IMG/VR virus record: IMGVR_UViG_3300031612_000506
Span: 1 to 22,399 of that record
DNA length: 22,399 bases
Origin: a virus
Direction: 5' to 3' (one strand)
Below, piece after piece: positions 2,496 to 22,124 of the stretch (its first letter is position 1; every line of letters starts with the position of its first letter). The translations under genes and the position numbers were made by a program. The notes beneath the pieces are model-generated. The model did not search any database. It saw only the letters and a program-made list of their open reading frames with translations, and was not told the origin of the DNA.

Positions 2496-5400
2496 ATGAT
2501 CGATAGAACAGACCCAACAAATAGGGATACTGTACCTGCGATGCTTACCCCCGGAGAATTTGTTCTTAATAAGGAAGCATCCAATATGTTTGCCCCTACT
2601 ATAGAGCAAATGAATAATGCGGGATTACAGCAACGTGCAATGAAAAACATGGGTGGTGGTATTCCCCCTCAATATTTAAACTTAGGTGGTGAAACCAGTG
2701 GTCGAGGTAGGATATCTACTGAACAGTCTGAAGCTACACCTTGGATACAGAATCTTGAAAATCGTGAAGGCTTTCGAGACTACGTGTATATAGATAGCGA
2801 AGGACATGCCACTATAGGTACTGGTCACAAACTCCCAGCTAGTTTTAAAAAATATGCATGGGATGGTAAAAGCGAAAGTACAAAGCATAAGCCATACAGT
2901 AAAGCTGAGTTAGATCAGATGCTCCTAGATGATTTAAGTACTGCTAGATCTGCTGCAGAAAAGAACTTTTCTAACTGGAATGAATTACCAGAGCCTGTTC
3001 AAAATGGGTTGACTAACATGGCATTTCAACTTGGTGGGAAAGGTCAATCTAAATTTGAAAAGATGAGAGAAGCTGTTGAAGCAGGTGACTACTCTAGGGC
3101 TGCTTTTGAGGCCAATGATAGTAAGTGGGCTGAACAAACTAATGTTCGTTCTGAAGACTTGGTTAATGTTTTCTTAGCTCAAAATCCAGTTCAATCTAAT
3201 TTCGATGTCCCAAGGCCCGGACAAGGGTTTGGTGTTGAAGCATTTGGCACAGGTAACTCTTTAAATAATCCACGCCCTTCAAGTGATCAATCTGCTGAGT
3301 TGGTAATTCCAACACAAGATCCTAGCATCAGAGGGGTGGTCCCTGAAGTAATTCAAACTAGCTTTTTACCCAATTCACCCCCTGAACAGTCAGAACCAAA
3401 CCAATATAGGTCTGTACCAACAGAACCAAACCAGTATAAGTCTGTACCAACTATCGAATCAGTTCCACCCCAACCAGAACAATCTTTTGGGCAAGCATTT
3501 GCTTCAGGTAGAGCTGCTCATGGTGGTGGTGGCGGCGTGTTTAGTTACAAAGGTCAAGAATATAGTACAAACATAGCGGAAGAAGAAGAACAAAACCGTA
3601 TGATGGCAAGTCAACCAACAATGACTGCTAACATGGGTGGGGATGTTCAGCATCTTAACCTAGGGGATTACGTTAAAAGTCTATTTGGTGGTGGACAACC
3701 TGATGATGAAGAACTTTTGTCTCAGTCGTCTCAAAGCATTGATCAAATGGCCCGTAAGAAACTCCAAGATGATGTTGACAATTCAATATTTTCAAGGAAT
3801 GAAAGGGATGCATTGACTAAATTTGATCAAGGCATGCTAAATGTAAATAGAAATGCAGTTCCTCCACCTAGACAAATGGGTCTATCTCCCGGAGAAATGG
3901 CTAATCAAACGACACTTGAATCCACTGTGCCTCCAACTGTAGCTGTACCCCCAAATGGATCGGCTCTTAATACATCTTTAAGAAAATTCTTTGAGCCTGT
4001 TGGTAATGTTATGGATAACAACCCTTTAAAGGATGCAATTGCAGCAGGTAATGGAGATCTTGAAGCACAGAAAAGGTTAGAGGCTGCTAACCAAGTTGTC
4101 CCGCAAGTTAACTCTCCTCCTGCACCTCCTCCAGCAAACTATAGCTTGTTAGATGCAAATCAATTATCTTTCCTTGCGGGTCAAGGTGATGATGATGCAA
4201 TTGCACAAGAGTTAATAAATGAAAGAAAACGCCTTAGCGAACAAGACGAGATGTCTTCTTTACCACCAGATCCGATTGACTTAACTACTCCTATACTTGC
4301 CAAAGTAGATGTGTTAGAGAAAAATACTTTCTCTGCTGCAAACACTGTTGAGAATACGGAGAGAGAACTGAATAGGGTAACACAAATTGCTAGTACTCTT
4401 GGGCCAAATTTTGGTTTTATTGATGATGATATTGCATCTATTGAACGACAACTGGTGAAAGATAGAGAAGCTTTAGATGCTGCAAGGCAAGCGGAACAGA
4501 TTGCAACATCCGAAGCAGATCAGACTTTAAGATCACAAAATCTTGTACGTCCAGAAGTCATTGCAGTAAAAGGTCTACCAGCAACTAATCTTGAACCTAA
4601 TAGGGATACATTAACTAAGACTGGGGCTAGTCGAAAGACTCCCGCTCAGATAGTGGCAGATTTAGAATTAGATAATACTGAAGCTAAAAATCTTGATGTT
4701 GATGAGACCCCTGATCCAGATCCTATTGAAGATACTGGTAAGGGTATTGCAAACTCTGATCCTAAAGCTTTTTCAAATGCTAAAAGTATTCTTAAGGATA
4801 TATTTGGAGATCTTTTTGACCCTAAAGAGTTAACAAGGGCTGCTATTATGTATTTAGGTGGTCGTGCTACTGGTATGAATGGTAATCAAGCCCTCGCATT
4901 CTCAGGTAAACAATATATTGCTCGTACAGATGCTAAGGCAAACAACTTTCAAACAGTTGCAATGAAAGCTGTACATACTAAAAAAAGTCTGTCTATCTAT
5001 AAGAAGACTATGGACCCTACAGATCTTATCCTTAAGTCTGTTGCACCTATATCAACTGGTGATTTTCAACAGTATTATAATCGTATAACAGGAGCTCCTA
5101 TTAATGCCCAGAAAAAGAAAGTGGGTAAGGAATACTTTTGGTTTGATGGTAATGAGCAAATGAATATGCAGGAGGTAACTAAAGATGCAAGGATGGCTAA
5201 AGGAACTAAGGAAAACAGGGAGTATAGTACCTCTGTTAGGAAAGGCTTTAGTGATTTAGTAGGTGAGTTAGATTCTTTAAATTCCTCTGAAGGTGAGGGG
5301 AACAAGAAGGGAACTCCAATATTAAAGATAGCTGCTAAGAATACTGCAGATGCAGCATATGTGTTTATGCAAAAGAATGGTGTCGGAGAAGAAGCAATGT

Positions 5401-5807
5401 CTGATATTATTGAACAGGTTTATAAAGAAGCCCTTGTAGATCAGAAAGCAGGTCAAAATATAGGATCACTTGAGTCTTACTTTAGAAGAGCTTGGGTTGA
5501 AACTCAGACACAAGATGCGGTTAACTTCCAACTACCATCTGGTGAACCAGTTGCTGTGGATAAAATTAAGAATTTCTTAGGTACTATACGTAATGTGGCT
5601 AAGAAAAGGGGTAATGATGAATTAGGTGCTCGAAATGATACTCAACTTTCTGCATTTTTAATGGAAACCCCTGCTTATAAGTTCTATAACTCTCCTGCTT
5701 TATCTGAAGAAGACAGAAAAAGATATATCAAGGATGGTAACAATGCTGGTATCAGTGGACTTATGCAATATATGATTACTGAACTGTCTAAAGACACCTC
5801 GTCCTAG
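2496..5807 (+). CDS. Ejection protein with GH24 (T4-type) lysozyme domain
   Basis: This 1103-aa internal virion protein fills the gp15 position. Residues 11-27 carry the phage structural motif DTVPAMLTPGEFVLNKE. Residues about 82-230 form a complete T4-type muramidase: E91 in NREGFRDY, D100 in YIDSEG and T106 in HATIGTGH match T4 E11/D20/T26 with identical 9- and 6-residue spacing, followed by the usual helical lobe (EPVQNGLTNMAFQLGG). It should cut the glycan strands of peptidoglycan while the DNA is being ejected. Residues about 270-330 are a Pro/Gln-rich linker with a small tandem repeat. The remaining 750 residues are mostly helical and polar, with coiled-coil-like stretches (about 620-680), and have no recognised fold. 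AGGAG precedes the ATG. In T7 itself the virion muramidase is an SLT-type domain at the start of gp16, so both fold and host protein differ here. Confidence 0.85.
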   Translation: MIDRTDPTNRDTVPAMLTPGEFVLNKEASNMFAPTIEQMNNAGLQQRAMKNMGGGIPPQYLNLGGETSGRGRISTEQSEATPWIQNLENREGFRDYVYIDSEGHATIGTGHKLPASFKKYAWDGKSESTKHKPYSKAELDQMLLDDLSTARSAAEKNFSNWNELPEPVQNGLTNMAFQLGGKGQSKFEKMREAVEAGDYSRAAFEANDSKWAEQTNVRSEDLVNVFLAQNPVQSNFDVPRPGQGFGVEAFGTGNSLNNPRPSSDQSAELVIPTQDPSIRGVVPEVIQTSFLPNSPPEQSEPNQYRSVPTEPNQYKSVPTIESVPPQPEQSFGQAFASGRAAHGGGGGVFSYKGQEYSTNIAEEEEQNRMMASQPTMTANMGGDVQHLNLGDYVKSLFGGGQPDDEELLSQSSQSIDQMARKKLQDDVDNSIFSRNERDALTKFDQGMLNVNRNAVPPPRQMGLSPGEMANQTTLESTVPPTVAVPPNGSALNTSLRKFFEPVGNVMDNNPLKDAIAAGNGDLEAQKRLEAANQVVPQVNSPPAPPPANYSLLDANQLSFLAGQGDDDAIAQELINERKRLSEQDEMSSLPPDPIDLTTPILAKVDVLEKNTFSAANTVENTERELNRVTQIASTLGPNFGFIDDDIASIERQLVKDREALDAARQAEQIATSEADQTLRSQNLVRPEVIAVKGLPATNLEPNRDTLTKTGASRKTPAQIVADLELDNTEAKNLDVDETPDPDPIEDTGKGIANSDPKAFSNAKSILKDIFGDLFDPKELTRAAIMYLGGRATGMNGNQALAFSGKQYIARTDAKANNFQTVAMKAVHTKKSLSIYKKTMDPTDLILKSVAPISTGDFQQYYNRITGAPINAQKKKVGKEYFWFDGNEQMNMQEVTKDARMAKGTKENREYSTSVRKGFSDLVGELDSLNSSEGEGNKKGTPILKIAAKNTADAAYVFMQKNGVGEEAMSDIIEQVYKEALVDQKAGQNIGSLESYFRRAWVETQTQDAVNFQLPSGEPVAVDKIKNFLGTIRNVAKKRGNDELGARNDTQLSAFLMETPAYKFYNSPALSEEDRKRYIKDGNNAGISGLMQYMITELSKDTSS
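3391..3450 (+). repeat. Tandem 30-bp duplication (two copies)
   Basis: Two adjacent 30-base units, 3391-3420 and 3421-3450, differ at two positions only. Both stay in frame and encode two copies of a decapeptide (EPNQYRSVPT / EPNQYKSVPT) in the Pro/Gln-rich linker that follows the lysozyme domain of the 1103-aa protein. It looks like a recent slippage duplication in a length-tolerant linker. Confidence 0.85.
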
Positions 5808-5836: not shown

Positions 5837-8800
5837 ATGGGAATACTTGATGATATTGATGCTTATAAACCTAATACTTTAATTGGCACCAATACACATT
5901 TCATTGATGGTGACACACTGGAGAATCCAGATGGTCCTAATTATCGACTTCGTGGATATGATGCTGCCGAGGTTTCTAAAATTTTAAAAACTGGTGAAGT
6001 AAAGGAAGGTACTGCTGGTGGTTCTAATACCACTGGCATTATCTCCAACCTTGCAAATGAACAGGGGTTTACTAATATAAGACCTGTGTTTAACCCTGAT
6101 GGGTCACCTATGATGGACACTCGTGGTGGTCGTCAAATGGTAGATCTTATTAACGACAAGGGAGAAAATTTCTCAAGTATGTTAATGAGTTCTGGTGCTA
6201 TGGATACTACAGAGTTTTCTACAGACTCTGATAGGATCAGGAAGGTTCAAGCTCAAGGTGATAGGGAAAGGGCTATATACCAAGGTACTTATAAGCCATC
6301 GGCATTTGATAAGGCCGCTGCACAGATTGAGAATGCAGAGCTTGAAGCTGGTGCTAAATCATTAGGGTTTAAAAGAACACTTGCTAATGAGAAGGAACGT
6401 GCATCATACATTAGTTACTTTATGGAATCACAGGGCATGTCAAGGAGACAAGCTGAGAGTGAGATGAACAAGTATTTCAATAGGGATGTAGATGTTTTCA
6501 ATCAAGGTGTTAGTTTAAATAATAAATCACTAAACCCAATGTCAGATTCTTGGGAACAGGGTTGGATCAGTGTTGGTGAAAGTGCCTTTGGTGTTGCCAA
6601 CATGCTAGGTTCCGCTACTGGTAGCGAGGGTTTAGAGTCTTGGGGTCAAGATGGTGTTGATAGGCAGAACAGTAAGATGCAACAGTATGGTTACACTATA
6701 AATAGCTATACTGATGTTGACAGTATTGGATCTGCCTTCGAATATTTAGGTAACAACATGGCTCTGTCACTGCCTTACATGGCAGCTACAGCAGCCGCAA
6801 CTGTTGCAGCACCTGTTACCTTTGGAGCTTCCTACACACTACCAGTGGGGCTCTACGCAGGTCAGACTTGGAATGACATGGAGGGGGACAACGATAATAA
6901 GTCTGCCACAATAGCCATTGGATCTGGTATAGCTCAAGCTGTACTAGATAGATTAGGTCTTAGGGGATTAGGTGGACTGGGTAAGAACCCAACAACTGTT
7001 CTCCAAGAAGCTGCAAACTCTCTGGCTAAATCTAGAGGTATAGCATTACCTGAAGCTAAGTCTATTGTTAAAGGCGAAGCAGACATAGCTATTGCTGCAT
7101 TTGCACAAGAAGCTCAGACCATAGCTAAGAAACAGTTAACTGCTAAGAGCTCAGCTAAACGTGTGTTAGGGACTGTTGGTGTAGGTTCTGTTAGTGAAGG
7201 ACTAACTGAGGTTGGTCAGGAAGCTATTGGATATCTTTCTGCTGTTGCAGGATCTGATAAAGTCTTTGACATGGAAGAGTTTGAAGAGCGTCTTGGTAAT
7301 GCAGCTATTGCTGGTGCCTCATTGGGTGCTACATTCAGTGTTCCGGGAACTGTAAAAGATCAAATAACATGGATGGATGCAGCTGTAAAGTATGGTGAAC
7401 CTGCTACCCCAAGGGAAGTAGAGAAGTATCGGGACATAGAGATAGAAAAGTATGGCACAGTTCGTACAATAACACAGGGTCTTGATCAGACTAAGGCAGA
7501 GATACCTAAGAAAGGTATCGTAGGCCCCTCAATATCTGAAAGGAGTGTGAAACATAAAGCTTTAGAATCAACTAAATCTTTTAGAGAACGGGCAAGTAAC
7601 GAGGTTATGAATATATCTCAACTTTGGAGAGCATCTGTTACCAACGCTATACCTAAAAGTATATTGAATAGGTCTGCATCTGCACGACTACTAGCATCTT
7701 CATTAGGTGGTACATTGACACCTCTTCATGGGGGGTCTGGTTTAGAGGCTGCACAACATCATTTGGTAACCTCATATAGAAATCAATTGGTTGATCCTAA
7801 AAAATTCTATGAAGAGATGGGACTTAAAAGTCTAGTGGGGTTACACAGTTCTAAGAAGAAGGCCGCTATAAGTGACAGGGTATATAGTGTATTACGTAAA
7901 GCTACTGACCCTAAGTCAGGGCAATTTGATGCTAACCTTATCCCAGAAGATACTGTAAATAGGGCTCAGATTGCAATGTTAGGTAATCAACTAATAGCTC
8001 TTGGAAAGGTTTTAAGATATGATCAAATGAATGCTGGTGCAAAGATGGGAGACATAACTAATTACTTACATAGGTTTAAATCTATAAGTAAAGCAGCTGT
8101 TCTTGCTAACCCAGACAAATTTAAATCATTGTTGGTGTCTAAGTTTGGAATCACACCAACTGAAGCTTTAGAAATAACCGATAAGGTTATAGATAATCCA
8201 GAGATTAACAGTCTTGGTGAAGCTATGCAGTCTAATATTGGATCTCTAAACCCATCATCTCAGAAGAAAAGAACAATGAACTTGTCAGAAACTGAGGGGT
8301 TTGAAGACTTCTATGAGAGTGATATATTTGCCAATGTAACTAACGCATCTAAATCTGCCGCAAGGTACACAACTCAAATGCAGTATGTTGGAAAGGATGG
8401 TGAGATAATTTCTCAACTACTTAACAATATGAAAGCTGAAGGTCTATCAGAGGAAGAGGTTAACAAAGTGGCTAGGGATGTTCAAGATATCCTTGAAGCC
8501 GTATCGGGTAACTACAGTAGACCTAAAACTCAAGCTGGTAAAAAGGCTATGCGGTTCCAAAAGAGTGCTATGTTTTGGATGACACTCTCTGCACTACCTC
8601 TTGCTACGTTTTCATCATTGCCTGAGTTAGCTATGACACAAGGTGCTCTCACTAAGGATCAGATATTTGGAAACAATGGTAGTATTAAGACAGCTGTTCG
8701 TGAATTTACTTCTGCATTTATCCCAAAACTTAAGAAAGTTGAGGAGTCAATTGATGATAGTCTCTTTGATAATGAAGGTCGTAGGGATGGCAGGGCTATC

Positions 8801-9814
8801 TTACGGGATACTGGTTTCTTTGCACAAGACGTTGGTGCTGCAACTGTAGCTGGTGTAAGTGAAGTTAACGACAACAGAAGGACAGCTATGGAAGCTTTCT
8901 TTAAAGTCACTGGCTTAACTGCATGGACAGACTACATGAGAGCTATACGTGGAGCTATGGCTTTTGATTTCATATCTATAAACACTAAGTTAATGAATGT
9001 TAGGGATGAGTTTGGGGATAAGGTTTACATAAGAGAAACCCAAGATGCTGAACAAAAGCTTAGGTCTTTAGGTATCCCAGTGGAACAGTTTGTGGATATA
9101 CATACTCGAATTGAAAGAGATGGGTATAGTACTATATCACCTGCTGAAAAGAAACTATGGGACACTTCAATTAAAGAAGCTACATTTAACTTCATCAATC
9201 AAGCAGTGGCACTTCCCGGAGCAGCTAATCGTCCTTTGATCTATCAAGATCCAAGGTTCGCTTTGTTCACACAGTTCCAAGGCTTTATATCTACATTTAC
9301 TGCAAATCAATTACCACGCATGTGGAATGATTACATAGCTCGTGGCACTCCTACTATGCGTTATAACACATTTGTTATGATGAGTACTATGATAGCCCTT
9401 GGGTTTTTCTCACAGTCTATGAAAGATCTAATTAAATTTGATGATGATGAAGATAATGAAGGAACATTTGGTAATCCCTATTTGGATAAGCCAGAGTACA
9501 TTCGCCGTGGTGTCATGGCTTCTGGTCTGTTTGGTACAGGCGAGAGGGTTATTGATATGTTTGCACCTATCTATGGACAAAGATCCAAGGGTGTCGGAGA
9601 TTGGATATACAACCAAGCTACTGGTGAGAGCCCTACTTTAGGGTATGTTGGTAGGATTGGTGATGCTGGTATGAATTTAGTTAAGGGTGATGTTGAACGC
9701 GCTGTATATCAGGGCCTCAAGTCTGCGCCTTTAATTGGGCCACTAACCGATGACAATAAAAGGGCAGCTAGTTTTATAACTGGCGGTGGCTGGAATTATA
9801 AGGAGAAAGATTAA
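5837..9814 (+). CDS. Giant ejection protein with N-terminal SNase-type nuclease domain
   Basis: This 1325-aa protein fills the gp16 position. Residues about 20-155 match the staphylococcal nuclease fold end to end. HFIDGDT supplies D26 (SNase D21), YRLRGYDAAE supplies R37, D42 and E45 (R35, D40, E43), and DTRGGRQMVDLIND supplies R99 (R87), followed by SMLMSSGAMD and the closing helix DRIRKVQAQGDRE. All catalytic and calcium-binding positions are therefore present. Possible membrane-active segments lie at about 308-345 (Ala-rich), 913-937 and 1176-1195, and QFQGFISTFTANQLPR near 1144 is typical of giant phage internal proteins. Its last codons contain the AAGGAG of the next gene and the stop overlaps the next ATG by one base. 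In T7, gp16 spans the inner membrane and pulls DNA into the cell; that role is inferred here, and the nuclease activity is predicted from residues only. Confidence 0.85.
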   Translation: MGILDDIDAYKPNTLIGTNTHFIDGDTLENPDGPNYRLRGYDAAEVSKILKTGEVKEGTAGGSNTTGIISNLANEQGFTNIRPVFNPDGSPMMDTRGGRQMVDLINDKGENFSSMLMSSGAMDTTEFSTDSDRIRKVQAQGDRERAIYQGTYKPSAFDKAAAQIENAELEAGAKSLGFKRTLANEKERASYISYFMESQGMSRRQAESEMNKYFNRDVDVFNQGVSLNNKSLNPMSDSWEQGWISVGESAFGVANMLGSATGSEGLESWGQDGVDRQNSKMQQYGYTINSYTDVDSIGSAFEYLGNNMALSLPYMAATAAATVAAPVTFGASYTLPVGLYAGQTWNDMEGDNDNKSATIAIGSGIAQAVLDRLGLRGLGGLGKNPTTVLQEAANSLAKSRGIALPEAKSIVKGEADIAIAAFAQEAQTIAKKQLTAKSSAKRVLGTVGVGSVSEGLTEVGQEAIGYLSAVAGSDKVFDMEEFEERLGNAAIAGASLGATFSVPGTVKDQITWMDAAVKYGEPATPREVEKYRDIEIEKYGTVRTITQGLDQTKAEIPKKGIVGPSISERSVKHKALESTKSFRERASNEVMNISQLWRASVTNAIPKSILNRSASARLLASSLGGTLTPLHGGSGLEAAQHHLVTSYRNQLVDPKKFYEEMGLKSLVGLHSSKKKAAISDRVYSVLRKATDPKSGQFDANLIPEDTVNRAQIAMLGNQLIALGKVLRYDQMNAGAKMGDITNYLHRFKSISKAAVLANPDKFKSLLVSKFGITPTEALEITDKVIDNPEINSLGEAMQSNIGSLNPSSQKKRTMNLSETEGFEDFYESDIFANVTNASKSAARYTTQMQYVGKDGEIISQLLNNMKAEGLSEEEVNKVARDVQDILEAVSGNYSRPKTQAGKKAMRFQKSAMFWMTLSALPLATFSSLPELAMTQGALTKDQIFGNNGSIKTAVREFTSAFIPKLKKVEESIDDSLFDNEGRRDGRAILRDTGFFAQDVGAATVAGVSEVNDNRRTAMEAFFKVTGLTAWTDYMRAIRGAMAFDFISINTKLMNVRDEFGDKVYIRETQDAEQKLRSLGIPVEQFVDIHTRIERDGYSTISPAEKKLWDTSIKEATFNFINQAVALPGAANRPLIYQDPRFALFTQFQGFISTFTANQLPRMWNDYIARGTPTMRYNTFVMMSTMIALGFFSQSMKDLIKFDDDEDNEGTFGNPYLDKPEYIRRGVMASGLFGTGERVIDMFAPIYGQRSKGVGDWIYNQATGESPTLGYVGRIGDAGMNLVKGDVERAVYQGLKSAPLIGPLTDDNKRAASFITGGGWNYKEKD

Positions 9815-12800
9815 TGGCGATACCAATAATACGTGGGGCTAAAGCCGATCTCATTAAACCATCTGAGACATTGATATCAGAAGGTATACAAGGGGAGCTT
9901 CAGTCTACTGCGGCTACACCACAACCTCAGGCTAATATGTCTATACTACAATCAATATCTGAAGCTACACCTGAGAGCCTTGCCCCTGTTGTGGGCGAGG
10001 CTTCAACACAACCTGTGGAGATGGCAGCACTGGACCCAGTACAAGGGGTAGAATTGTCAGAACCTGTGTTTGCAGATTTAAATGCCTTTGAAGACAATCG
10101 TTTTGATGTTGTTGATATGAAGACTCGTAATATTAACGAAGGTAATCCTGATACATCTGTAGGTTTTAAAAGACTTGATGGATCTAAGATACCCCCTCGT
10201 ATATATAATCTTAATCCAAACAACTCTGAAGTTTATTCTGATGCTGGCATAAGAAGCAGATCAGGTACTATGGTTGCTCATGTTAATGCAGGTAGGCTTG
10301 GTATAAACCTATCTGGATTAGGGACACCAGCTTATCAGGGTAAGTCAAACCCAGATGCATTAACTGGACCAGCCTTGTCTGAAGAGATTCAGAAATACAA
10401 AGAGGGGGATATACTAGCAGCTATTAGTAGGTCAGATGCTGTCATTGAGAATGAACAAGGTTTTAAATTACCATCTCCACTGTACACTGGTATAGCTTCT
10501 GCTGTAACTGAGAACGTGATGATGAATGCTTTTGGTGGTCAAACTGCAGACACAGATGCATTACAAGAAGCTATGGGGGAGTCTTCTTTAGTTCCTAATC
10601 TTAAGGATAAAGTTAATCCAACTGTTACTCACGCTTCTGGTAATAAAATGTTGGGGCAGCAGATACACCTAGAGTACTCCCGTATGCAGAAAAAGGTACT
10701 TGAAAGTCAAGGAGTTCCTACTAGTGATCCTCGTATGGTAACATTATCTTCTCCAACTCAGATCCCTACAAGGGAAGCTGAGACTTTAGGTGCTGCATTT
10801 AAACACTTGTGGGCTGAAACTAACCCACACATGGTTACTCGTGGTGTTGACACTGTTACAAAACAGATAACATATGCCCTTACACCTGAAGGTGAAGCAG
10901 TGCTTGACTTAGGTTCTTTAGAAAGGAAAAAGCTTTTCCCAAGACAAATAGTTCGTCCAGCTAAAACATACTCTAAGATACAAGGCACTGATGTTCAAAA
11001 GAATGTAGCTCGTGCCACATCTGGTGCCAAGAAAGGCCAGAAGATGGGTAAGGTTCTTGAGGAGGCTATGCAAAATCTAGGTTCTGTTGCACATGTGGTT
11101 GATAAAACTCGTCTAAAAATCATACTATCAACTACCCTTCCATCATTAACTTCAGGTGAGTTTGAATCGTTTGGTGCTGAGATAAATGGTATTGGTCAAA
11201 CTAAAATGGATAGGTTTAATGCAAGCGAAACTCAACAGAAGAAAAAGTTTAAAGCTAATCCAGAACTTAGGAACACTGAAGATGAGTATGTACCTTCTGA
11301 AAACATGGCTATGTTACAGGATAAATTAGCTAATGAGATAAGATCAATGTCTCAGGAATTGGATAGTGCTAACTTTTTAACTTGGAACATACAAGGGTTT
11401 CAAGGAAGATTGACCCCACAGCAGTCTTATTTTAACCTAACTACATCCAAGACTGTTAGGTTTGCAACCAGAAATGCTGTACCTGCTACTATAAAACCTG
11501 GGAATAGGCAAGAGAAAAACATAAGACAAATGTATGCAATGATACTTATTCCAAAGACTGTTATTAAAAATGTAACAGGTGAGGAAACTGTAGTAAATGA
11601 AGCTGGAGATTCTTATCTACCTGCACAAAGGGATTACCTTTTGCGTCAGAAAGAAGGCGAGCTTTACTCTTATGGTAAAAGATTAGAAGCAGCTTTACAA
11701 ATGTCGGATGCAGAGTTTGAGTCTATAACTACAGCAATAAAAAATGGTGTTGCATTAGACAATCCAAGTTTCCCGAAGGTAACTGGACTTAACCTTGATC
11801 CTAATAATGAACTAGATGCTAAACTTATAGGTCTTATAAGAGACAACAAAGATGATGGTCCTCTTTTCATAGATACAGCTATTGATTTCTCTAAGTATGT
11901 AGATTTTAAAAACCAATACAAATCAACTAAAGATAAGTCACTTACATTTAACTCTTATGTTAATGCTTATATAGATGGTAAGACTAATGGTCCTGCCAGT
12001 AATGCTATGCAATTAGGTAATTCTGACACAGCTTTTATGACAGGAGTACTCAGACGTAGCAGGGTATCTAACCTAGATGAAGGTGATATGCGCGATAAGT
12101 TGATGGATTTAGCATCTGATAGCATAGACAATGGTTGGGAAGGTTTAACTTCAGAGAATTATACACCCATGAACAATGTAGCTAGGCAGGTGTTTGCTAA
12201 TCGTGACTTGGCTAAGCTTGTTATTATGACCTATGGTTATGGTAAAGAGATTGAAAGTTTTAATGCAAACATCGATGAGGTCATTGAGCTTATTAACGAA
12301 AGGAAAATTCGTGAAGAGGCTGAAGGAATGGGAGTCAACACCTTTGCTCATGATATCGCTCTACTTGAAGCAACTGTTTCTCGAAATGAGTTAGCTAACA
12401 TGTTAACTGGAAGGTATGCTCAGTCTGTAGAAGGCGTTCTTGGAGATGAGACAATTGAAGCTCGGTCTATTATGAGATCAGCTGCCGCTTTACATGCAGC
12501 TATGAATGAACCTTTTATAATTAAAGGTCCAACAGGTATGGACATACACATAGGTGGTGAGTCATCTACTGGGTATTTAAATGCTGATCTTAGTACTTAT
12601 AGACTAAGCCCAATGGACTCTGATGTTTTCCAAACAACAACTGTTGCATCTTATAACACAGAACCTACAGCCGCAGCAGCTAGGACAAGAGGGGATCAAT
12701 CTATTCCCGGAGAACATGCCTATGGTGGGTCAGTTGTAGCACCTATTCAAGCTATAGATGCTGCGACAGTTGCCATGACTGCTTCTGGTTCGTCTTGGGA

Positions 12801-13425
12801 TAAGTTAACAAGGGCATCAAAAGGTAGCCCTTACTTGCACACTATTTACGATGCATTTAAAATGGATGCTAATGGGTATGATGTTGTACTGGAAGAGGTT
12901 AATAACAACTGGATGAAGGCCACAATGGACTGGAGCTATCTTGAGCAAGCCAAGGCATCATTAGCTGAAGCCACTGAAAGGTACAATGAAAAGATGAAGG
13001 GTCGTAAACCTACAGATAAGATCACAGATAATGAAAGTGCTTACATGGGTTGGTTATTAACAGTAGTTGTTAACCCTAATACTGGTAAAAGATCTATGGT
13101 AAACATGAGAAACAGACTAGGTAAGTTCACAGATCTACGTAACGATGATAAGTACAAGACTGCTACTCGTGAGATTGAGTCTCGGTTTTCAAAGTCGATG
13201 GCAAGTGTTGGCTTTGATGTTAACAATCCACCATCTGAGTTTACTGTTGCCCAACTAAAACAATTTAAAGGCACATTAAGTACTGTACTAAATTCAGATA
13301 GTCGTTTAAATAAAATGATTAGTGAAACCAATAACAATAAGAAGAAGTTAAAGGACATGATCATGAAGACAGGTTACAAGTTGGAGAATGGTAAACGTAT
13401 TGTTCTTCAGTACTTCGGACATTAA
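9814..13425 (+). CDS. Putative virion-packaged single-subunit RNA polymerase (N4 vRNAP-like)
   Basis: This 1203-aa protein shows the signature motifs of the T7/N4 single-subunit RNA polymerase family in the right order. QGFQGRLTPQQSYFN has R532 (T7 DWRGR, R425). YIDGKTNGPASNAMQLG is motif A with catalytic D721 (T7 D537). RDLAKLVIMTYGYGKE is motif B with R797, K801, Y809 and G810, the same spacing as T7 R627, K631, Y639 and G640. APIQAIDAATVAM followed by LHTIYDAF is motif C with D1013 (T7 D812). The first 500 residues have no clear relative. The whole length is close to the N4 minimal virion polymerase (about 1100 aa). It is the last gene of the ejection block, overlaps the 1325-aa gene by one base and is followed directly by a terminator. 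It is not the phage's conventional RNA polymerase, which lies on the other strand. Packaging and injection are inferred from location and the N4 precedent. Confidence 0.8.
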   Translation: MAIPIIRGAKADLIKPSETLISEGIQGELQSTAATPQPQANMSILQSISEATPESLAPVVGEASTQPVEMAALDPVQGVELSEPVFADLNAFEDNRFDVVDMKTRNINEGNPDTSVGFKRLDGSKIPPRIYNLNPNNSEVYSDAGIRSRSGTMVAHVNAGRLGINLSGLGTPAYQGKSNPDALTGPALSEEIQKYKEGDILAAISRSDAVIENEQGFKLPSPLYTGIASAVTENVMMNAFGGQTADTDALQEAMGESSLVPNLKDKVNPTVTHASGNKMLGQQIHLEYSRMQKKVLESQGVPTSDPRMVTLSSPTQIPTREAETLGAAFKHLWAETNPHMVTRGVDTVTKQITYALTPEGEAVLDLGSLERKKLFPRQIVRPAKTYSKIQGTDVQKNVARATSGAKKGQKMGKVLEEAMQNLGSVAHVVDKTRLKIILSTTLPSLTSGEFESFGAEINGIGQTKMDRFNASETQQKKKFKANPELRNTEDEYVPSENMAMLQDKLANEIRSMSQELDSANFLTWNIQGFQGRLTPQQSYFNLTTSKTVRFATRNAVPATIKPGNRQEKNIRQMYAMILIPKTVIKNVTGEETVVNEAGDSYLPAQRDYLLRQKEGELYSYGKRLEAALQMSDAEFESITTAIKNGVALDNPSFPKVTGLNLDPNNELDAKLIGLIRDNKDDGPLFIDTAIDFSKYVDFKNQYKSTKDKSLTFNSYVNAYIDGKTNGPASNAMQLGNSDTAFMTGVLRRSRVSNLDEGDMRDKLMDLASDSIDNGWEGLTSENYTPMNNVARQVFANRDLAKLVIMTYGYGKEIESFNANIDEVIELINERKIREEAEGMGVNTFAHDIALLEATVSRNELANMLTGRYAQSVEGVLGDETIEARSIMRSAAALHAAMNEPFIIKGPTGMDIHIGGESSTGYLNADLSTYRLSPMDSDVFQTTTVASYNTEPTAAAARTRGDQSIPGEHAYGGSVVAPIQAIDAATVAMTASGSSWDKLTRASKGSPYLHTIYDAFKMDANGYDVVLEEVNNNWMKATMDWSYLEQAKASLAEATERYNEKMKGRKPTDKITDNESAYMGWLLTVVVNPNTGKRSMVNMRNRLGKFTDLRNDDKYKTATREIESRFSKSMASVGFDVNNPPSEFTVAQLKQFKGTLSTVLNSDSRLNKMISETNNNKKKLKDMIMKTGYKLENGKRIVLQYFGH

Positions 13426-13480
13426 AAAAATAAAGCCCCCAAGGATATCATAGAGATATCTCTGGGGGCTTTTTAATTTT
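13426..13480. terminator. Bidirectional intrinsic terminator between convergent operons
   Basis: AAAGCCCCC at 13432-13440 pairs with GGGGGCTTT at 13464-13472, and inside it two GATATC copies (13444-13449 and 13455-13460) extend the stem. On the plus strand it is followed by TTTTTAATTTT. On the minus strand the exit side reads into a run of T's (the A-run at 13424-13430). It therefore works as a terminator in both directions and sits exactly between the stop codons of the two converging operons. Confidence 0.93.
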
Positions 13481-13757
13481 AAAGCATTCCTCGTTTAGCA
13501 AGTAACTCTCGGTACTCTTTTAATTGATCTTGCTTACGTTGTCTAGCTTTCTTATCATCAATGACACCACTGGCAAGATCTTCAGCGATACCAAGGTCTA
13601 TTACACGAGGCATTAGATCCTTTGTGAAAGCCAACTCTTCAGCCAGATTATCATGGGTCAGTGGGTTATTGTTCCAATCGGTAATGAACTCATCGTCATC
13701 TACCTGCACACCTCTGAGTGCTAAATGATTGTATGATTTACGCGAAGAAGTAGTCAC
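13479..13757 (-). CDS. Small hypothetical protein, last gene of the leftward operon
   Basis: This protein of about 92 aa is of unknown function, soluble, highly charged and helical, with an acidic middle (DDDEFITDW) and a Lys/Arg/Glu-rich C-terminal helix (KKARQRKQDQLKEY). I chose the GTG at 13755-13757 because AAGGAG lies 10 bases before it. The frame also has a TTG at 13764-13766, but that would leave a single base after the same GGAG. Either way it overlaps the end of the RNA polymerase gene by 20-29 bases, so it is translated as a rider on the polymerase message. Its stop lies in the terminator's T-run. It could be a small regulator of transcription or of host functions, but nothing in the sequence shows it. 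Confidence 0.6.
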   Translation of the reverse strand: MTTSSRKSYNHLALRGVQVDDDEFITDWNNNPLTHDNLAEELAFTKDLMPRVIDLGIAEDLASGVIDDKKARQRKQDQLKEYRELLAKRGML

Positions 13758-16032
13758 TATTTTCAATCTCCTTTATATCTAGGGTGCCAAGTGTGGGCTG
13801 TTCCACATCGTCTTCGGCATCTGTTATGAAGTTACGTATGACTTCAAAGTAATTATCATAGTCATACATACGTATGAATACTTGTTTAGTTAAGTCTAGT
13901 AGTTTATCAACATCACTAGCGTGTGTGCTAAAACTATCATGTACAGCCGCAAAGCAACCATCCCATTCAGATATCACAAGGGCCATGTGACTGGCATCCA
14001 TAGAGTGTATGTAATTAGGTGACATACCACACACAAACCCTCTACGATCAGGCATACGTGTTGGTACTAAGGCTACGTGCGTAACCTGTCCAGTCTTATT
14101 ACCATACCCTTTGATCCTACCTCTGGCTTTCCTGTCTTGCATTATCCATTTCTCATAGATAACATCAAACCCTGAAGGGGTACTCCACTCAATCCTATCA
14201 TCACCTTTGCCATGTTTAAGATCTGTAGTGTACTCTTTTAACTTGATAACTACATCATTCAGTTCTTCTAGATCCTCATCGGTCTTGAAGTTCTTCTTCA
14301 TTAGTTCATCACGTTTCTTAGAGAACTCTCTGTACTCAGCATTAGCTTCGTAACCATCAGAGTCTACCTTAACATGTGTACCTAGTTGATACATAGCTAA
14401 GTTCTGTAGATAACTCATGGTAGATAGAGGTCCGGGACATACCTTATCGATTGCTTTGATAAGGAGTTTAGATAGTTTAGTACAGTCATCCTGTGTTATT
14501 CCATACTCTGTGTGGTAGTCCTCTGATTTACAATCAAAGAACATGTTCTCAGCTATCTTCTTAGCACCAGCAGAGTATGCCCTAGTCATTGACCCTCGCT
14601 TAGAGATACCCTTTCGGATATGCTTCATGGGCATTAAGGCTATAATAGAATTCAACCTGTCATCTTTACACAGGTTAATCATTTCTTTGGCAGTCTGCAC
14701 ATAGAAATCTTTCTGTATATCTACAGGGATCAACCCCACTAAGTCACCAGTCTGTTCATCTTTAGAGATGGCCCCTAAGTGTTGCCATCCATTATTACTA
14801 CCATCAATTGGGATAGGTAACGATGTCATGTGTATCCTGTTGTCTTTGAATGCACAGTCAAAATCATACCACTCCACACAAGCAGCTAAGAAAGATACCT
14901 TCTTTTCAGCTGAGTCAGAGAACTCTTGGTGCTTACCCGCATCTATGATCTCAGACATGTATTCATTAGTCCAAGATATACGATCCTCAAGTGTCATCTT
15001 GTCAACTGATATGTTATCCAAGCCTTCACTTTTTAGGTACTCTCTATAGTCTTCATTGCACCAATCTGGTATCTCATCAATGTTGTAAGACATATTAAAC
15101 ACAGACGCAGTGTGTATAGCTAACCACTGTAACCCACTTTCTGTCATGGGCTTAGCATGTTGAAACTTAAACAGTCCCCTTGCTAGATCAGATCCTTGAA
15201 AGTTCATAAAGCTTTCACAGTAGTAGAACCTACCTCTGTAGTCTACATCTAGGTACTGATAGAACTCATCTAACTCAGACAGCTTACGTGCCTTTTCAGA
15301 TATGAATGCCCACTCTACCATCTTGCTTCTACGTTTAAGCTCTTTGGCATCGTTGTCCTCTACTGGATCTTGAGATACAAATAGATCTTTATTATTAACC
15401 ATAGCCTCATACACAGGTGTGTTGATTACCCATGCTGTTTGCTGTAGTTTGTTTAAAGCTTGTATCCAAGGAGCATAAGGATTTAAGGGATCATTCTCTA
15501 GCCTTCCCTTTATTATTGGTCGATTAACTCCATTGATCTGTTGGAACATTTTAGTTATGTCCACAGGTCTTTCAGTGGTTGTTGCAGCAAGTGGGAAGCT
15601 TACTCCCTTAGCTGGTATAACACCTAGCTCAAACCACCTAGGGGCAGCTGACACAACGTGACAACTGTTCCTTGTTTTAGCATAGGATAACTCAATGAAG
15701 TTAAGATTATACAGTGCCTCTATAAACAGGTCACCTATAGACACTTGAGAGCCCCAAGGTAGGGGCTCCCGATCTAACTCTCTTCCAATACTCTGACCTA
15801 TCTTCGTTGAAGCGTTGGTCAATGTAGTAGTACCTGATGGGCTGGAGCTAGTATCTTTTGTAAATTGCATTTGCAGAATTGCAATAGCTTTAAGAACGTA
15901 ATCTTCCATACGTTCACTGTAGTCTATCGATAACCTTAGCAAGAGACCCGCTACGTGGGGTCTTCGTCTTGCAGGACTTACCCCATCTACTCTCTTTACG
16001 AGGTAGTTAACTATCTCTTCAACTGCTGACAT
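13738..16032 (-). CDS. T7-like single-subunit DNA-directed RNA polymerase
   Basis: This 764-aa phage RNA polymerase is shorter than T7's 883 aa, mostly at the N-terminus. The motifs are clear: DYRGRFYY with R268 (T7 DWRGR), motif A PIDGSNNGWQHL with D410, motif B SKRGSMTRAYS with K478 and Y486, and motif C with NYIHSMDASH and AVHDSF (D699). The C-terminus SDYFFA matches the T7 ending FAFA that contributes to the active site. Two positions in motif B deviate: K474 stands where T7 has R627, and S487 follows the key tyrosine where T7 has Gly640. It would transcribe phage genes from its own promoters, probably the late virion operon. It is nearly the last gene of the leftward operon, unlike T7 where it is the first phage gene expressed. 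GGAG lies 6 bases before the ATG. Confidence 0.95.
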   Translation of the reverse strand: MSAVEEIVNYLVKRVDGVSPARRRPHVAGLLLRLSIDYSERMEDYVLKAIAILQMQFTKDTSSSPSGTTTLTNASTKIGQSIGRELDREPLPWGSQVSIGDLFIEALYNLNFIELSYAKTRNSCHVVSAAPRWFELGVIPAKGVSFPLAATTTERPVDITKMFQQINGVNRPIIKGRLENDPLNPYAPWIQALNKLQQTAWVINTPVYEAMVNNKDLFVSQDPVEDNDAKELKRRSKMVEWAFISEKARKLSELDEFYQYLDVDYRGRFYYCESFMNFQGSDLARGLFKFQHAKPMTESGLQWLAIHTASVFNMSYNIDEIPDWCNEDYREYLKSEGLDNISVDKMTLEDRISWTNEYMSEIIDAGKHQEFSDSAEKKVSFLAACVEWYDFDCAFKDNRIHMTSLPIPIDGSNNGWQHLGAISKDEQTGDLVGLIPVDIQKDFYVQTAKEMINLCKDDRLNSIIALMPMKHIRKGISKRGSMTRAYSAGAKKIAENMFFDCKSEDYHTEYGITQDDCTKLSKLLIKAIDKVCPGPLSTMSYLQNLAMYQLGTHVKVDSDGYEANAEYREFSKKRDELMKKNFKTDEDLEELNDVVIKLKEYTTDLKHGKGDDRIEWSTPSGFDVIYEKWIMQDRKARGRIKGYGNKTGQVTHVALVPTRMPDRRGFVCGMSPNYIHSMDASHMALVISEWDGCFAAVHDSFSTHASDVDKLLDLTKQVFIRMYDYDNYFEVIRNFITDAEDDVEQPTLGTLDIKEIENSDYFFA
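15749..15768 (-). other. GC-rich perfect hairpin inside the RNA polymerase gene
   Basis: GAGCCCC (15749-15755) and GGGGCTC (15762-15768) form a perfect 7-bp stem with a 6-base loop, unusually GC-rich for this sequence. It falls around residues 88-95 of the RNA polymerase coding region. There is no T-run after it, so it is not an intrinsic terminator. It may be chance or a structural signal. Confidence 0.3.
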
Positions 16033-16040
16033 GTAATCTC

Positions 16041-17666
16041 CTATGTCGTTACGTAATCAAACCCCTCCTCTTTAGCTACGAGTCGGGTAGTCTTAGTGTC
16101 ATAAGATGCACTACCTGCATCACCTGTTTGTCCAGTGAATCTAGACTTGAGAACCCTGAAGGTAACTGTGTTACGTTCATAATCATCAACAGCTACTAGG
16201 TTCCTAGAGAATGCGATGATGTCAAATGAGATCTGTTTAATAGAACCAGAGCCTTTGATGTCATCGATGGATGCAATGTTACCATCCTCAAAGGCTTTAC
16301 CACCCTGTGCTTTACGCAAGTGTGAGATCAACCCCAGCCATATGTTATGCCTCTTAACAATCTTAAGTAAGTCTGACATAAATTTATCGATAGCTTCGTT
16401 ACCAGACAACCCATCACTACCTTCTGATACAGCAATGGTGATGTGATCTAGTACCAAGTACTTGCAACCCATGAGGGCCATGTACTCTATCTTATCTATC
16501 AGGCTATCGTCACCTACTGATCCTTGGTGGTCGAGGAGTACAAGTCTCTCATCTCCAAATACTTCATCAAAACCTCGTCTAAGTTCGTCTTCAGGCGGAG
16601 GTGTATCCTCATTAAGAGGCTTCTTGATAGCCATCCCAATGAATTTCTCTGCCGTATCTCCAACGCTTTCTTCCAAACTGATAAGCCCAATACGATCTTT
16701 TGTTTTTGTGAGAAGATCCAAGATAATCTCTTTGATAACAGTAGACTTACCACTGCCAGTTCCAGAAGTGAATAGAGTAATCTCACCATGTCTAATTCCT
16801 TTTAGTTTCTTGTTCAAACCACTGAGACAATCAGGGTAAGGAACACACTCTACGTTTTGACGTTGCTTGAATTGGTTCCAGATAGGTTCACCTGTAACAA
16901 TACCAGATGGGTTCCAACTCTGTGCATTCCATATGCATTCAATCAGAGTCTTCCAACCATGCTTCATAAGCGTATCATTGGCATCCTTCTCAGGCAGCTT
17001 AGCTATCTTAGCTTTTCCCGGTTTAATCATCTTACCTAGGAAGTCAGCCATCTTCTTACCAGCTTCATCCTGATCCATCATGATCACTACAGTTTTAAAA
17101 CTATTGATCCAATCCCTTTGAGCAAGAGGCACAGAGGTAGAAGATGCAGAAGGGACACCAACCACAGCATAGGTACGTCCGTATTTTTCTTGGTATGCTT
17201 GGGCAACCGACATGGTGTCGATGGCTCCTTCACAGATGACCAACGTAAATCCTGAAGTTGCTTGTCGTTGTCCGAATAATTCGACATTTTTAAAGTCTCC
17301 ATAAACACGGAAGTCTTTTGGTAACTTACGTTCTTGATAGGCTGTAACGTCACCATCAACTGTCCAAGGATAGTAATGAGCTAGGGGTTTACCATTGGTA
17401 TCCACAGACATCTTTACTTTAAAGTGGTCCACAATCTTATGTGAGATACCACGAGATGTCATAGGGTAGCTACGATAGGTTCCTATCTCTCCCAGAATTG
17501 GGCTTGATAACATATCATCTATGTCGTCATCGTCTATTAAATTATTCATGTTACTACTTTCTTTAAACACAGTCTTCCCACATGAGAAGCAGTGTGTTCT
17601 TGGGTTGTCATCATTATAAATATGGTTAGCATCTGAGCTACCACAACTTTCACAATTAGTCTTCAA
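16041..17666 (-). CDS. T7 gp4-like bifunctional primase-helicase
   Basis: This 541-aa protein has all gp4 parts in order. A four-cysteine zinc ribbon (C5, C8, C26, C29) reads the priming site. A TOPRIM primase domain has E146 in ICEGAIDTMS and D198/D200 in MMDQDEAG. A RecA-type hexameric helicase has Walker A GTGSGKST (302-309), the catalytic Glu in SLEESVGDTAE (332-333), Walker B LVLDHITI (D407) and the C-terminal LKSRFTG Arg-finger region. It unwinds the fork and lays primers for the DNA polymerase. The start is a TTG at 17664-17666 with AAGGG 7 bases upstream; the next ATG would delete the zinc ribbon, so the TTG is the functional start. It lies 8 bases upstream of the RNA polymerase gene. 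Confidence 0.95.
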   Translation of the reverse strand: MKTNCESCGSSDANHIYNDDNPRTHCFSCGKTVFKESSNMNNLIDDDDIDDMLSSPILGEIGTYRSYPMTSRGISHKIVDHFKVKMSVDTNGKPLAHYYPWTVDGDVTAYQERKLPKDFRVYGDFKNVELFGQRQATSGFTLVICEGAIDTMSVAQAYQEKYGRTYAVVGVPSASSTSVPLAQRDWINSFKTVVIMMDQDEAGKKMADFLGKMIKPGKAKIAKLPEKDANDTLMKHGWKTLIECIWNAQSWNPSGIVTGEPIWNQFKQRQNVECVPYPDCLSGLNKKLKGIRHGEITLFTSGTGSGKSTVIKEIILDLLTKTKDRIGLISLEESVGDTAEKFIGMAIKKPLNEDTPPPEDELRRGFDEVFGDERLVLLDHQGSVGDDSLIDKIEYMALMGCKYLVLDHITIAVSEGSDGLSGNEAIDKFMSDLLKIVKRHNIWLGLISHLRKAQGGKAFEDGNIASIDDIKGSGSIKQISFDIIAFSRNLVAVDDYERNTVTFRVLKSRFTGQTGDAGSASYDTKTTRLVAKEEGFDYVTT

Positions 17667-17696
17667 TTGAAATCCCTTTCTTCTTTCAGATCCCTA

Positions 17697-18095
17697 TTAT
17701 AGTTTCGTTTCTTTCGAGTCTTGGAGTGCTTCGACTCCCACTTCGAGTTCTTCTGTTTGTGTAACTCGGACCCAGAGATACTCTCTTCCTCGTTTGACTC
17801 TATCTCGTTGTAAGATGATACCTTGGACAGTTTTGTCATTGAACTCCTCAAATATGTTTTGGTATGTATCTAGTAATGGTTTAATTATGTTGTCTAAGTC
17901 TGAGGCTTTATTAGATAACCCAGCATAGACAATGAAATGAACAGGGCTGTTACCATAGGGCCACTCTTCGCCCATTAGTATCGTTGCCATCTCTTCTTGA
18001 AACCTCTTATAGTCAGCTGTCTTGTAGGTTGTCCTTCCCTTTCTCACAAACATCTTGTTTGCTGATAATGGTTTGATCTGGAATAGCTGCTCCAT
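17697..18095 (-). CDS. RusA-like Holliday junction resolvase
   Basis: This 132-aa protein matches RusA in length and signature: an N-terminal KPLSANKMF segment equivalent to the PPSxN loop, then SDLDNIIKPLLD with D66 and D68 and NDKTV with D87. These correspond to E. coli RusA D70, D72 and D91, and the 19-residue gap between the last two is identical. It should be a dimeric endonuclease that resolves four-way junctions and branched replication products before packaging, the job done by gp3 endonuclease I in T7. The ATG at 18093-18095 is chosen because GGAG sits 7 bases upstream and the RusA fold begins there. The frame runs open to 18173 but those residues are not RusA-like. It overlaps the upstream HNH gene by 83 bases. 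Confidence 0.88.
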   Translation of the reverse strand: MEQLFQIKPLSANKMFVRKGRTTYKTADYKRFQEEMATILMGEEWPYGNSPVHFIVYAGLSNKASDLDNIIKPLLDTYQNIFEEFNDKTVQGIILQRDRVKRGREYLWVRVTQTEELEVGVEALQDSKETKL

Positions 18096-18366
18096 TTCTA
18101 CGCTCCGCTGTTCTAATGGCATGACAATTGTGACACACCACTTCTGTTTTAAACACCTCATCAAGCACTGCACCTATATCCCTGTCTTGTGAGATCATTC
18201 GAGAAACATTGTGTAGCTTCTCGAACTGAGGTAAATGATCAAATGCAAGTGCATCTGGGTGCTTGTTGTATCCACAATCAGTACACCCTATATCAGTTTT
18301 AAGAAGCCCTATGAACTTCCGCTTCTGCTTTCGACTTATGCTGGCTAATTTGTTCTTTAATGTCAT
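18013..18366 (-). CDS. HNH endonuclease, overlapping both neighbours
   Basis: This 117-aa HNH nuclease of the zinc-bound type has C28 and C31 (CTDC), D43-H44 (FDH) as the catalytic His, N53, then C78 and C81 with H82 (CHNCHAIR) closing the zinc site and the metal site. The N-terminal 25 residues are very basic (KNKLAS, RKQKRKF) and probably bind DNA. Such free-standing HNH genes in phages are often homing-type nicking enzymes, but some take part in packaging or host DNA breakdown. The ATG at 18364-18366 with GAAGAG upstream puts its first 22 codons inside the end of the exonuclease gene. Its last 27 codons overlap the start of the RusA-like gene in another frame. The tail after residue 90 has no HNH features and may exist only because of that overlap. 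Confidence 0.82.
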   Translation of the reverse strand: MTLKNKLASISRKQKRKFIGLLKTDIGCTDCGYNKHPDALAFDHLPQFEKLHNVSRMISQDRDIGAVLDEVFKTEVVCHNCHAIRTAERRNGAAIPDQTIISKQDVCEKGKDNLQDS

Positions 18367-19042
18367 CTAACTCTTCCCAAGATGTTATCATTGTTAATAG
18401 GCGCTTAGAGATGTCTGGATCTCCTGCCCTGTTTGTTCTCCATGCTGCACGTACTCGGTTCCACCTACGTTCCATAGGTACACCATGCAGTATTCTTTCT
18501 GCCTTCTTAGGGCCAACTCCTTTAATTCCCGGAATGTTATCCGATCTATCACCAGTTAGACACTGAAGCATAAGCTTAAGGTTAGCAGTGTCATCGTTGA
18601 TCTCTTGTATTTCTTTCTTCACAAAGTTATAGTGAGTCCCAGGAATTTGTAGTAGATCTTTATCAATACCTGCAACTGTGTACTCTTGACCTACCTCTCT
18701 GCACTCGGATGCCCATATACTAACAAGGTCATCCGCTTCCATATCATCTGCTTCAATGGCTTCGTACTTATCAACCATGTATTTATGGCCGTAGTTCAAT
18801 GCTTCTTTTACATCTGCATCTAGATCCTTTCTTGTTGACTTGTAGTTGGGGTAAATATCCTTTCGGAAATTACCCCTTCCTTTGATTGCCACTAGGAAAC
18901 TATCAGACCCACAGTTCTGTTGGATCTCTCTCATAGTGTGATCGATACCTACTCGTATATCCTTTTGCTTCTTTGTGACACAAGCCATGCGAAAGTATAT
19001 TGAGTCTGAATCTACTAGTATTACTGCGTTATCAGTGAACAT
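18299..19042 (-). CDS. T7 gp6-like 5'-3' exonuclease (FEN family)
   Basis: This 247-aa flap/5'-3' exonuclease carries the acidic metal-binding residues of the PIN-like core: D11/D13 (VDSDS), the IYPNYKSTRKD arch segment with basic residues, E102/D104/D105 (MEADDLVS), D127/D129 (GIDKDLL) and D165/D168 (GDRSDN). A helix-3-turn-helix DNA-binding loop follows (IPGIKGVGPKKA, 170-181). It would remove RNA primers and degrade host DNA to supply nucleotides. It is somewhat shorter than T7 gp6 (about 300 aa). It overlaps the end of the DNA polymerase gene by 11 bases, suggesting coupled translation, and its C-terminal 22 codons are shared with the start of the HNH gene. The C-terminus is Lys/Glu-rich and may be disordered. 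Confidence 0.93.
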   Translation of the reverse strand: MFTDNAVILVDSDSIYFRMACVTKKQKDIRVGIDHTMREIQQNCGSDSFLVAIKGRGNFRKDIYPNYKSTRKDLDADVKEALNYGHKYMVDKYEAIEADDMEADDLVSIWASECREVGQEYTVAGIDKDLLQIPGTHYNFVKKEIQEINDDTANLKLMLQCLTGDRSDNIPGIKGVGPKKAERILHGVPMERRWNRVRAAWRTNRAGDPDISKRLLTMITSWEELDDIKEQISQHKSKAEAEVHRAS

Positions 19043-20870: not shown

Positions 20871-20884
20871 ATTGCGTCCTTTCT

Positions 20885-21106
20885 TTACTTGTTTAAGTAC
20901 ATTTTTAAATCGTTGTATCCACCTATCAGTTCATCATTATAATAAATGATAGGCACTGTGTTCATTAGTGAGCGTTTCATTATGTTTTTACCTATTCCAA
21001 TTTGCAGGTCAATGGCATACTCTGTAAAACCTTTACCAGTTTCCCTTAGTAACTCCTTAGCCCTAATGCAAAAGGGACAGTTAGCTATGCAATAGATTTC
21101 ATACAT
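20885..21106 (-). CDS. Glutaredoxin
   Basis: This 73-aa glutaredoxin has a thioredoxin-fold start (MYEIYCIANCPFC), active-site dithiol C10-P-F-C13, the cis-proline strand TVPIIYYND and the closing GGYNDL glutathione-side motif. It would supply electrons to a ribonucleotide reductase, so it fits beside ThyX in a nucleotide-synthesis set. No reductase gene is seen in this window. The frame is open to an ATG at 21149-21151, but I choose 21104-21106 because the fold begins exactly there and GGGAG lies 10 bases before it, while the longer start has only weak GAAG. The start overlaps the stop of the 35-aa gene upstream by 8 bases. Confidence 0.9.
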   Translation of the reverse strand: MYEIYCIANCPFCIRAKELLRETGKGFTEYAIDLQIGIGKNIMKRSLMNTVPIIYYNDELIGGYNDLKMYLNK

Positions 21107-21206
21107 TGTTCTTGTACTCCCATAATATCTTATTGAGTTTAGCCAACTCATCTTCTAATTTATATATTTGACGCTGTAGGTTTTCTATTTCACCGCACAT
21201 GCTCAT
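21099..21206 (-). CDS. 35-aa coiled-coil peptide
   Basis: An ATG at 21204-21206 opens a 35-codon frame ending in TGA at 21099-21101. The peptide (MSMCGEIENLQRQ... ending in WEYKNNV) has leucine/isoleucine heptads (ENLQRQIYKLEDELAKLNKIL) and is probably a short coiled coil. A very strong purine-rich ribosome site, AAAGGAGAGGAGAGAGG, lies immediately upstream and has no other gene to serve. The stop overlaps the glutaredoxin start, so translation is probably coupled. It fills what would otherwise be a 100-base gap between ThyX and glutaredoxin. It resembles the short Rz-like or replication-accessory coiled-coil peptides of phages, but its function is unknown. Confidence 0.7.
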   Translation of the reverse strand: MSMCGEIENLQRQIYKLEDELAKLNKILWEYKNNV

Positions 21207-21227
21207 CCTCTCTCCTCTCCTTTATAC

Positions 21228-21926: not shown

Positions 21927-22110
21927 TATCTATCCTTTCTAAGAAAATCCTGACACATGCAACTTGAGCATTGTCAGTTGTAACCATTATTTTAGCAGTT
22001 TCCATTATAGCTGAACATCTTTTCAGACTTCCATAGTTTCCTAATTGAAATACATCCACACCCATTCCCGGTACAGCGTTTACCCATAAGAGTACCCACA
22101 TTGTAACCAT
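21916..22110 (-). CDS. Small membrane or exported two-cysteine protein
   Basis: This 64-aa protein has a short hydrophobic N-terminus (MVTMWVLLWVNAVPGMG) that could be a signal or membrane anchor. A compact domain follows with FQLGNYGSLKRCSAIMETA and a second cysteine in QVACVRI, a strand-helix-strand pattern with one Cys after the G-x-Y/S segment and one near the C-terminus that could form a disulfide outside the cytoplasm. Small proteins of this look recur in marine phages, but I know no function for them. AGGAGG 7 bases before the ATG is one of the strongest ribosome sites in the operon, so it should be well expressed. It overlaps the ThyX start by 11 bases. Confidence 0.65.
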   Translation of the reverse strand: MVTMWVLLWVNAVPGMGVDVFQLGNYGSLKRCSAIMETAKIMVTTDNAQVACVRIFLERIDNDS

Positions 22111-22124
22111 AATTTATCCTCCTG

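Follow-up and report, generated by a model that had tools for sequence, protein, structure and literature searches.

The virion RNA polymerase (vRNAP) of phage N4, gp50, is the textbook virion-borne polymerase and is treated as a hallmark of the Schitoviridae. It is a 3500-aa protein, in which the polymerase of single-subunit fold (mini-vRNAP, residues 998-2103) is accompanied by an N-terminal domain of ~1000 aa and a C-terminal domain of 1400 aa. Its gene is the last of the virion block and converges with the replication genes, and its partner, RNAPII, is a split T7-like heterodimer of 269 and 404 aa. We know of no report that T7 packages its own RNAP. The mini-vRNAP, at 1106 residues, is the smallest active domain of the N4 enzyme (PMC4496689); the same paper cites unpublished data by which genome injection depends on the N-terminal domain, and encapsidation on the C-terminal one. 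A cryo-EM preprint ascribes autoinhibition to the C-terminal domain of gp50 and membrane association to its N-terminal domain (PMC12633501). The closest precedent for the locus described here is found in the Alteromonas phages vB_AmeP_PT11-V19 and R22Y, which encode another RNAP in addition to a vRNAP of 2083 aa (PMC11705849). An N4-hallmark RNAP was also reported for the Poorviridae phage vB_PunP_Y3, with distant PSI-BLAST matches to DNA polymerase, major capsid protein and RNAP (PMC11654794); by that paper's description, this is a podovirus outside the Schitoviridae with such an enzyme. For StenR_269 a vRNAP was suggested from size and the absence of cysteine (PMC10747016). Our search of open-access papers brought up no account of a vRNAP of the minimal size reported below, or of its family.

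The stretch of DNA analysed here, which we call the window, comprises positions 1-22,399 of a single viral record (IMG/VR IMGVR_UViG_3300031612_000506; 22,399 nucleotides). The last gene of its virion block encodes a 1203-aa protein, follows the genes of two large probable ejection proteins and converges with the replication genes (Table 1), as N4 gp50 does. Its reading frame runs uninterrupted through 1203 codons from an ATG start with a good ribosome site, and this ATG meets the stop of the upstream 1325-aa gene in a TAATG overlap. For the neighbouring proteins, no homology to the N4 N- or C-terminal domains, to N4 gp51-53 or to T7 gp14-16 could be detected. The phrog_6958 similarity in the C-terminal part of the 1325-aa protein is common to podovirus structural proteins (KPP25, Vibrio phages), and in KPP25 and Vibrio phage 1.262.O, annotated phages that have this domain, no vRNAP was found at the corresponding place. 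A possible small gene of 95 aa with a TTG start overlaps the T7-like RNAP gene at its end.

Table 1. Features of the window, followed by sites in related and comparison phages (coordinates refer to the window unless another sequence is named)
Feature	Position	Strand	Basis or remark
1103-aa probable ejection protein, phage lysozyme domain (residues 89-217), 0 Cys	2496..5807	+	
1325-aa probable ejection protein, 0 Cys, C-terminal part similar to phrog_6958 (virion structural protein)	5837..9814	+	
Putative short N4-type virion RNA polymerase, 1203 aa	9814..13425	+	ORF, profiles, predicted structure, conservation
GR motif, codon of R532 (N4 mini-vRNAP R424)	11407..11409	+	Profile alignment; invariant 48/48
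Motif A DGKTNG, codon of D721 (N4 D559, DGVTNG)	11974..11976	+	Profile alignment, conservation
Motif B, R797-K801-Y809-G810 (N4 R666, K670, Y678)	12202..12243	+	Profile alignment, conservation
Motif C IYDAF, codon of D1013 (N4 D951, IFDGM)	12850..12852	+	Profile alignment, conservation
Strong hairpin (~-27 kcal/mol) flanked by T-runs, likely terminator for both directions	13432..13472	.	Between convergent polymerase genes
Possible small gene, 95 aa	13479-13766	-	
T7-like RNA polymerase, 764 aa, last large gene of replication operon	13738..16032	-	phrog_414, E=1e-97
Replication block: primase/helicase, RusA-like and HNH nucleases, exonuclease, DNA polymerase A, thioredoxin-like protein, ThyX, small ORFs	16041..22346	-	
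TTCTCTAAGTTCCTTATAGGGA sites, relative G001	G001 (L086-L088): 5040, 36059, 42018, 42356, 44172	+, +, -, +, +	Syntenic sites in G002, G003, G009
AACCGACAAAGCGCACT tandem pair	G001: 36568-36617; G003: 20502-20550	-; +	Also in G002, G009
V19 2083-aa vRNAP	L095: 32493-38741		phrog_2206
V19 single-chain 670-aa RNAP	L096: 17979-19991		
CRP-7 gp33, 1235-aa hypothetical protein	L012: 17859-21566	-	0 Cys

Fold, sequence profile and conservation together give good support to reading the 1203-aa protein as a divergent single-subunit RNA polymerase, the second in this phage beside the T7-like one. The sequence-only reading had recognised an RNAP motif set in this protein and proposed a structural comparison; the frame is indeed open and every residue that it named is in place. 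An AlphaFold2 model, built with 32 sequences in the alignment, has a pLDDT of 80 and a pTM of 0.82. All 50 Foldseek matches listed in the PDB are single-subunit RNAPs (E 1e-15 to 1e-12), including the yeast and human mitochondrial enzymes, T7 RNAP and N4 mini-vRNAP, the last having the highest query TM-score (0.43) among those listed. Matches in the viral library were T7-like RNAPs and schitovirus vRNAPs. Global TM-scores by query length are moderate (about 0.3-0.43), which fits a long chain and distant homology. In the model residues ~1-130 are mostly predicted to be disordered, and residues ~135-1203 (~1070 residues) form the folded polymerase, with the chain ending 190 residues past motif C, compared with 155 in N4 mini-vRNAP.

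Among uncultured bacterial viruses, scans of IMG/VR gave up to 69 loci with relatives and 65 distinct family proteins, of which 48 are full length (1116-1366 aa) and diverge, when aligned, down to about 30% identity. R532, D721, K801, Y809, G810 and D1013 are invariant in all 48, and position 797 is arginine in 40, lysine in seven and serine in one; conservation so nearly total argues that the motif pattern did not arise by chance. R532, K546, D721, R797, K801, Y809 and D1013 co-align with R424, K437, D559, R666, K670, Y678 and D951 of N4 mini-vRNAP. From this co-alignment D721, K801, Y809 and D1013 would be expected to meet in space, and the active site is predicted to be intact. The distances between the motifs (189, 80 and 212 residues) had been described as within or near the T7 and N4 ranges, which holds only in part. 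T7 has distances of about 112, 94 and 181, and N4, by residue numbers, of 135, 111 and 281; the third distance lies between the two, but the first exceeds both and the second falls short of both.

Sequence searches of the usual kind say little about this protein. There was no match in Pfam and nothing useful in a sequence search of the PDB, and tblastn against 50,697 phage records gave weak matches to T7-like RNAPs and no close homologue; vRNAPs thus escape standard annotation. The PHROG that does detect it is that of T7-like RNAPs, phrog_414, which matches residues 697-911 (E 4e-4), 18 of 32 family members and, with E down to 1e-9, the same gene in near-complete genomes. Since the overall fold and motif order are also the same, the gene might be a duplicate of the phage's own T7-like RNAP moved into the virion block, rather than an N4-type enzyme. 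We regard this as extremely unlikely, because phrog_414 is matched by N4 mini-vRNAP as well and profile comparison separates the two types. Using hhalign, a profile of 29 relatives matched ten schitovirus vRNAPs with a probability of 97.4% (E 1e-11, residues 393-1062), but T7-type RNAPs, including the phage's own, with 0.8%. A larger profile of 48 relatives gave 97.3% against 3.2%. Control profiles of a neighbour and of DNA polymerase stayed below 1%, and the positive control, N4-type against T7-type RNAPs, reached 95%. A schitovirus HMM also matches family members directly, with E down to 1e-4 when scaled to 15 million sequences, and the signatures DGxTNG, in motif A, and GR...SK.VR.A are common to N4-type enzymes and this family. 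The earlier assignment to the T7/N4 family is therefore borne out and narrowed to N4 vRNAP. The 1203-aa protein shares its fold with T7 RNAP and the Autographiviridae, and both the partner enzyme and the promoters of the relatives are of T7 type, but by sequence profile it falls outside the T7 family and groups with the N4-type virion polymerases.

The protein appears to be a variant rather than a typical vRNAP, because at 1203 aa it has neither the giant size nor the N- and C-terminal domains of N4. It consists of a polymerase-sized part and a mostly disordered start of ~130 residues only. No match to either N4 domain was found in the protein or its neighbours, and no transmembrane segment was found in the protein itself. 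It is possible, then, that the family is an active N4-type RNAP that is made late but left unpackaged, and that serves late transcription or primes replication in the cell. The domains reported for encapsidation and injection are missing (PMC4496689), and an intact active site would suit such a role. The cysteine content argues otherwise. The 1203-aa protein has no cysteine, which would have a probability of about 1e-8 if cysteine were as frequent in it as in the window's other proteins, and the whole family has seven in 68,947 residues, compared with 1.42% in the paired T7-like RNAP. N4 vRNAP has none in 3500 residues, the two large neighbours (1103 and 1325 aa) and T7 gp15 and gp16 are likewise cysteine-free, and so are the catalytic regions sampled from nine further schitovirus vRNAPs; other virion proteins are cysteine-poor too, yet often not free of cysteine. 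This near-absence, common to ejected proteins, groups the enzyme with them and apart from intracellular enzymes such as the T7-like RNAP and DNA polymerase. The gene also comes last, after those of the large ejection proteins, and the virion genes are already served by T7-like promoters. An unpackaged enzyme consequently seems unlikely to us. The sequence-only reading had proposed a packaged and injected enzyme like N4 gp50, and this proposal gains indirect support from the N4-specific homology, the operon position of gp50 and the scarcity of cysteine that marks ejected proteins.

The relatives also suggest when such an enzyme might act. A convergent T7-like RNAP gene adjoins the family gene in all 65 distinct relatives, usually with a gap of ~310 bases. 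In four near-complete relatives (about 57-60 kb) we observed copies of a T7-type promoter, TTCTCTAAGTTCCTTATAGGGA, one of which stands at the head of the replication operon closed by the T7-like RNAP gene, and others of which head packaging and structural genes. No promoter of this type was found in the window, which ends before the promoter region. As the operon encoding the T7-like RNAP is headed by that enzyme's own type of promoter, its first transcript must come from another polymerase, and the packaged enzyme would be the natural candidate for making it. A possible alternative is that host RNAP transcribes the early operon through sigma-70 promoters. We found no excess of N4-type promoter hairpins (7-bp stem, 3-nt loop) in the window or the relatives, a search that leaves shorter or other hairpins outside its scope. 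With no identifiable N4-type promoters, and given the strong sequence divergence, the protein could instead be a polymerase-derived ejection protein that is now structural only, a part of the channel or a DNA-pulling motor that no longer transcribes. A structural role, however, would not need the catalytic residues, which are invariant across 48 sequences as divergent as ~30% identity, and we judge this very unlikely. Two further observations concern relative G001 and its kin. The 36059 (+) copy of TTCTCTAAGTTCCTTATAGGGA runs opposite to the replication operon and faces a lone 130-aa ORF (36146-36538, +). A conserved tandem pair of AACCGACAAAGCGCACT, ~34 bases apart, lies beside a terminator-like hairpin and is a candidate origin, promoter or terminator.

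In silico, the analysis establishes the fold and active site of the protein, its kinship with N4, the position of its gene, the depletion of cysteine, the constant pairing with the T7-like enzyme and the T7-type promoters of the relatives; from them we infer packaging, ejection, activity and an early role. We consider it likely that the gene product is a virion RNAP of the N4 kind cut down to roughly its catalytic domain, about a third of the N4 enzyme, so that nature would offer its own version of the laboratory-made 'mini-vRNAP'. The protein would be made late alongside the virion proteins and enter the particle together with the lysozyme protein (1103 aa) and the 1325-aa protein. All three would be threaded through the short tail, and a chain free of cysteine would be well suited to unfolding and to crossing the envelope. 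Once refolded in the host, the polymerase would start the infection cycle by transcribing the initial phage genes itself, independently of host RNA polymerase. These early transcripts would lead to synthesis of the 764-aa T7-like RNAP, which would then take over from the T7-type promoters to transcribe the replication and virion genes.

How this lineage relates to the Schitoviridae is also of interest. The portal of relative G001 belongs to phrog_1216, the PHROG of the N4 portal gp59 (the window itself is without the portal region). The major capsid protein, in contrast, is of phrog_1328 in G001 and in Roseobacter phage CRP-7, compared with phrog_1357 in N4, and a single T7-like RNAP takes the place of the split RNAPII (RNAP1 and RNAP2) in 65 of 65 relatives. 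Because the capsid PHROG differs and the second RNAP is single-chain, despite the N4 portal PHROG, the lineage would be a relative of the Schitoviridae at most, and not a member by hallmark genes. A scan of bacterial genomes found relatives on two MAG contigs only, labelled Dehalococcoidia and Bacteroidetes, and both are most likely phage contigs binned by mistake. V19 and R22Y resemble the present locus in that a shortened vRNAP ends the virion block and the genome also encodes a second, single-chain RNAP, but their vRNAP is longer and their portal and capsid are of N4 PHROGs. The 2083-aa V19 enzyme is of intermediate size; a regular-expression search of it with simple N4 patterns did not recover motifs A and B, and no direct match between the V19/R22Y vRNAP and our family was detectable. 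The novelty first attached to such an enzyme beside a T7-like replication set is tempered by these two phages (PMC11705849) and by N4 itself, whose RNAPII is T7-like. The pairing of a short vRNAP with a single-chain T7-like RNAP may preserve a state ancestral to the giant vRNAP and split RNAPII of N4, and the family bears on whether that pair came first. At least 65 distinct relatives keep the polymerase-sized part only, which raises the question of what packaging and ejection really require, and the family offers enzymes that are minimal by nature to studies of transcription in vitro.

CRP-7 (MK613349) is the closest cultured relative by its T7-like RNAP (36% identity over the full length) and has the same layout; the paper describing it noted the T7-like RNAP only (PMC6918029). 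In place of the short vRNAP it has gp33, a cysteine-free hypothetical protein. Collinear D, YG and HDA motifs are shared between gp33 and our family, with low hhalign probabilities, and its structure model has a pLDDT of 37 and was built from eight similar rows. The homology is at most suggestive, and it is possible that gp33 is a divergent vRNAP in a cultured phage.
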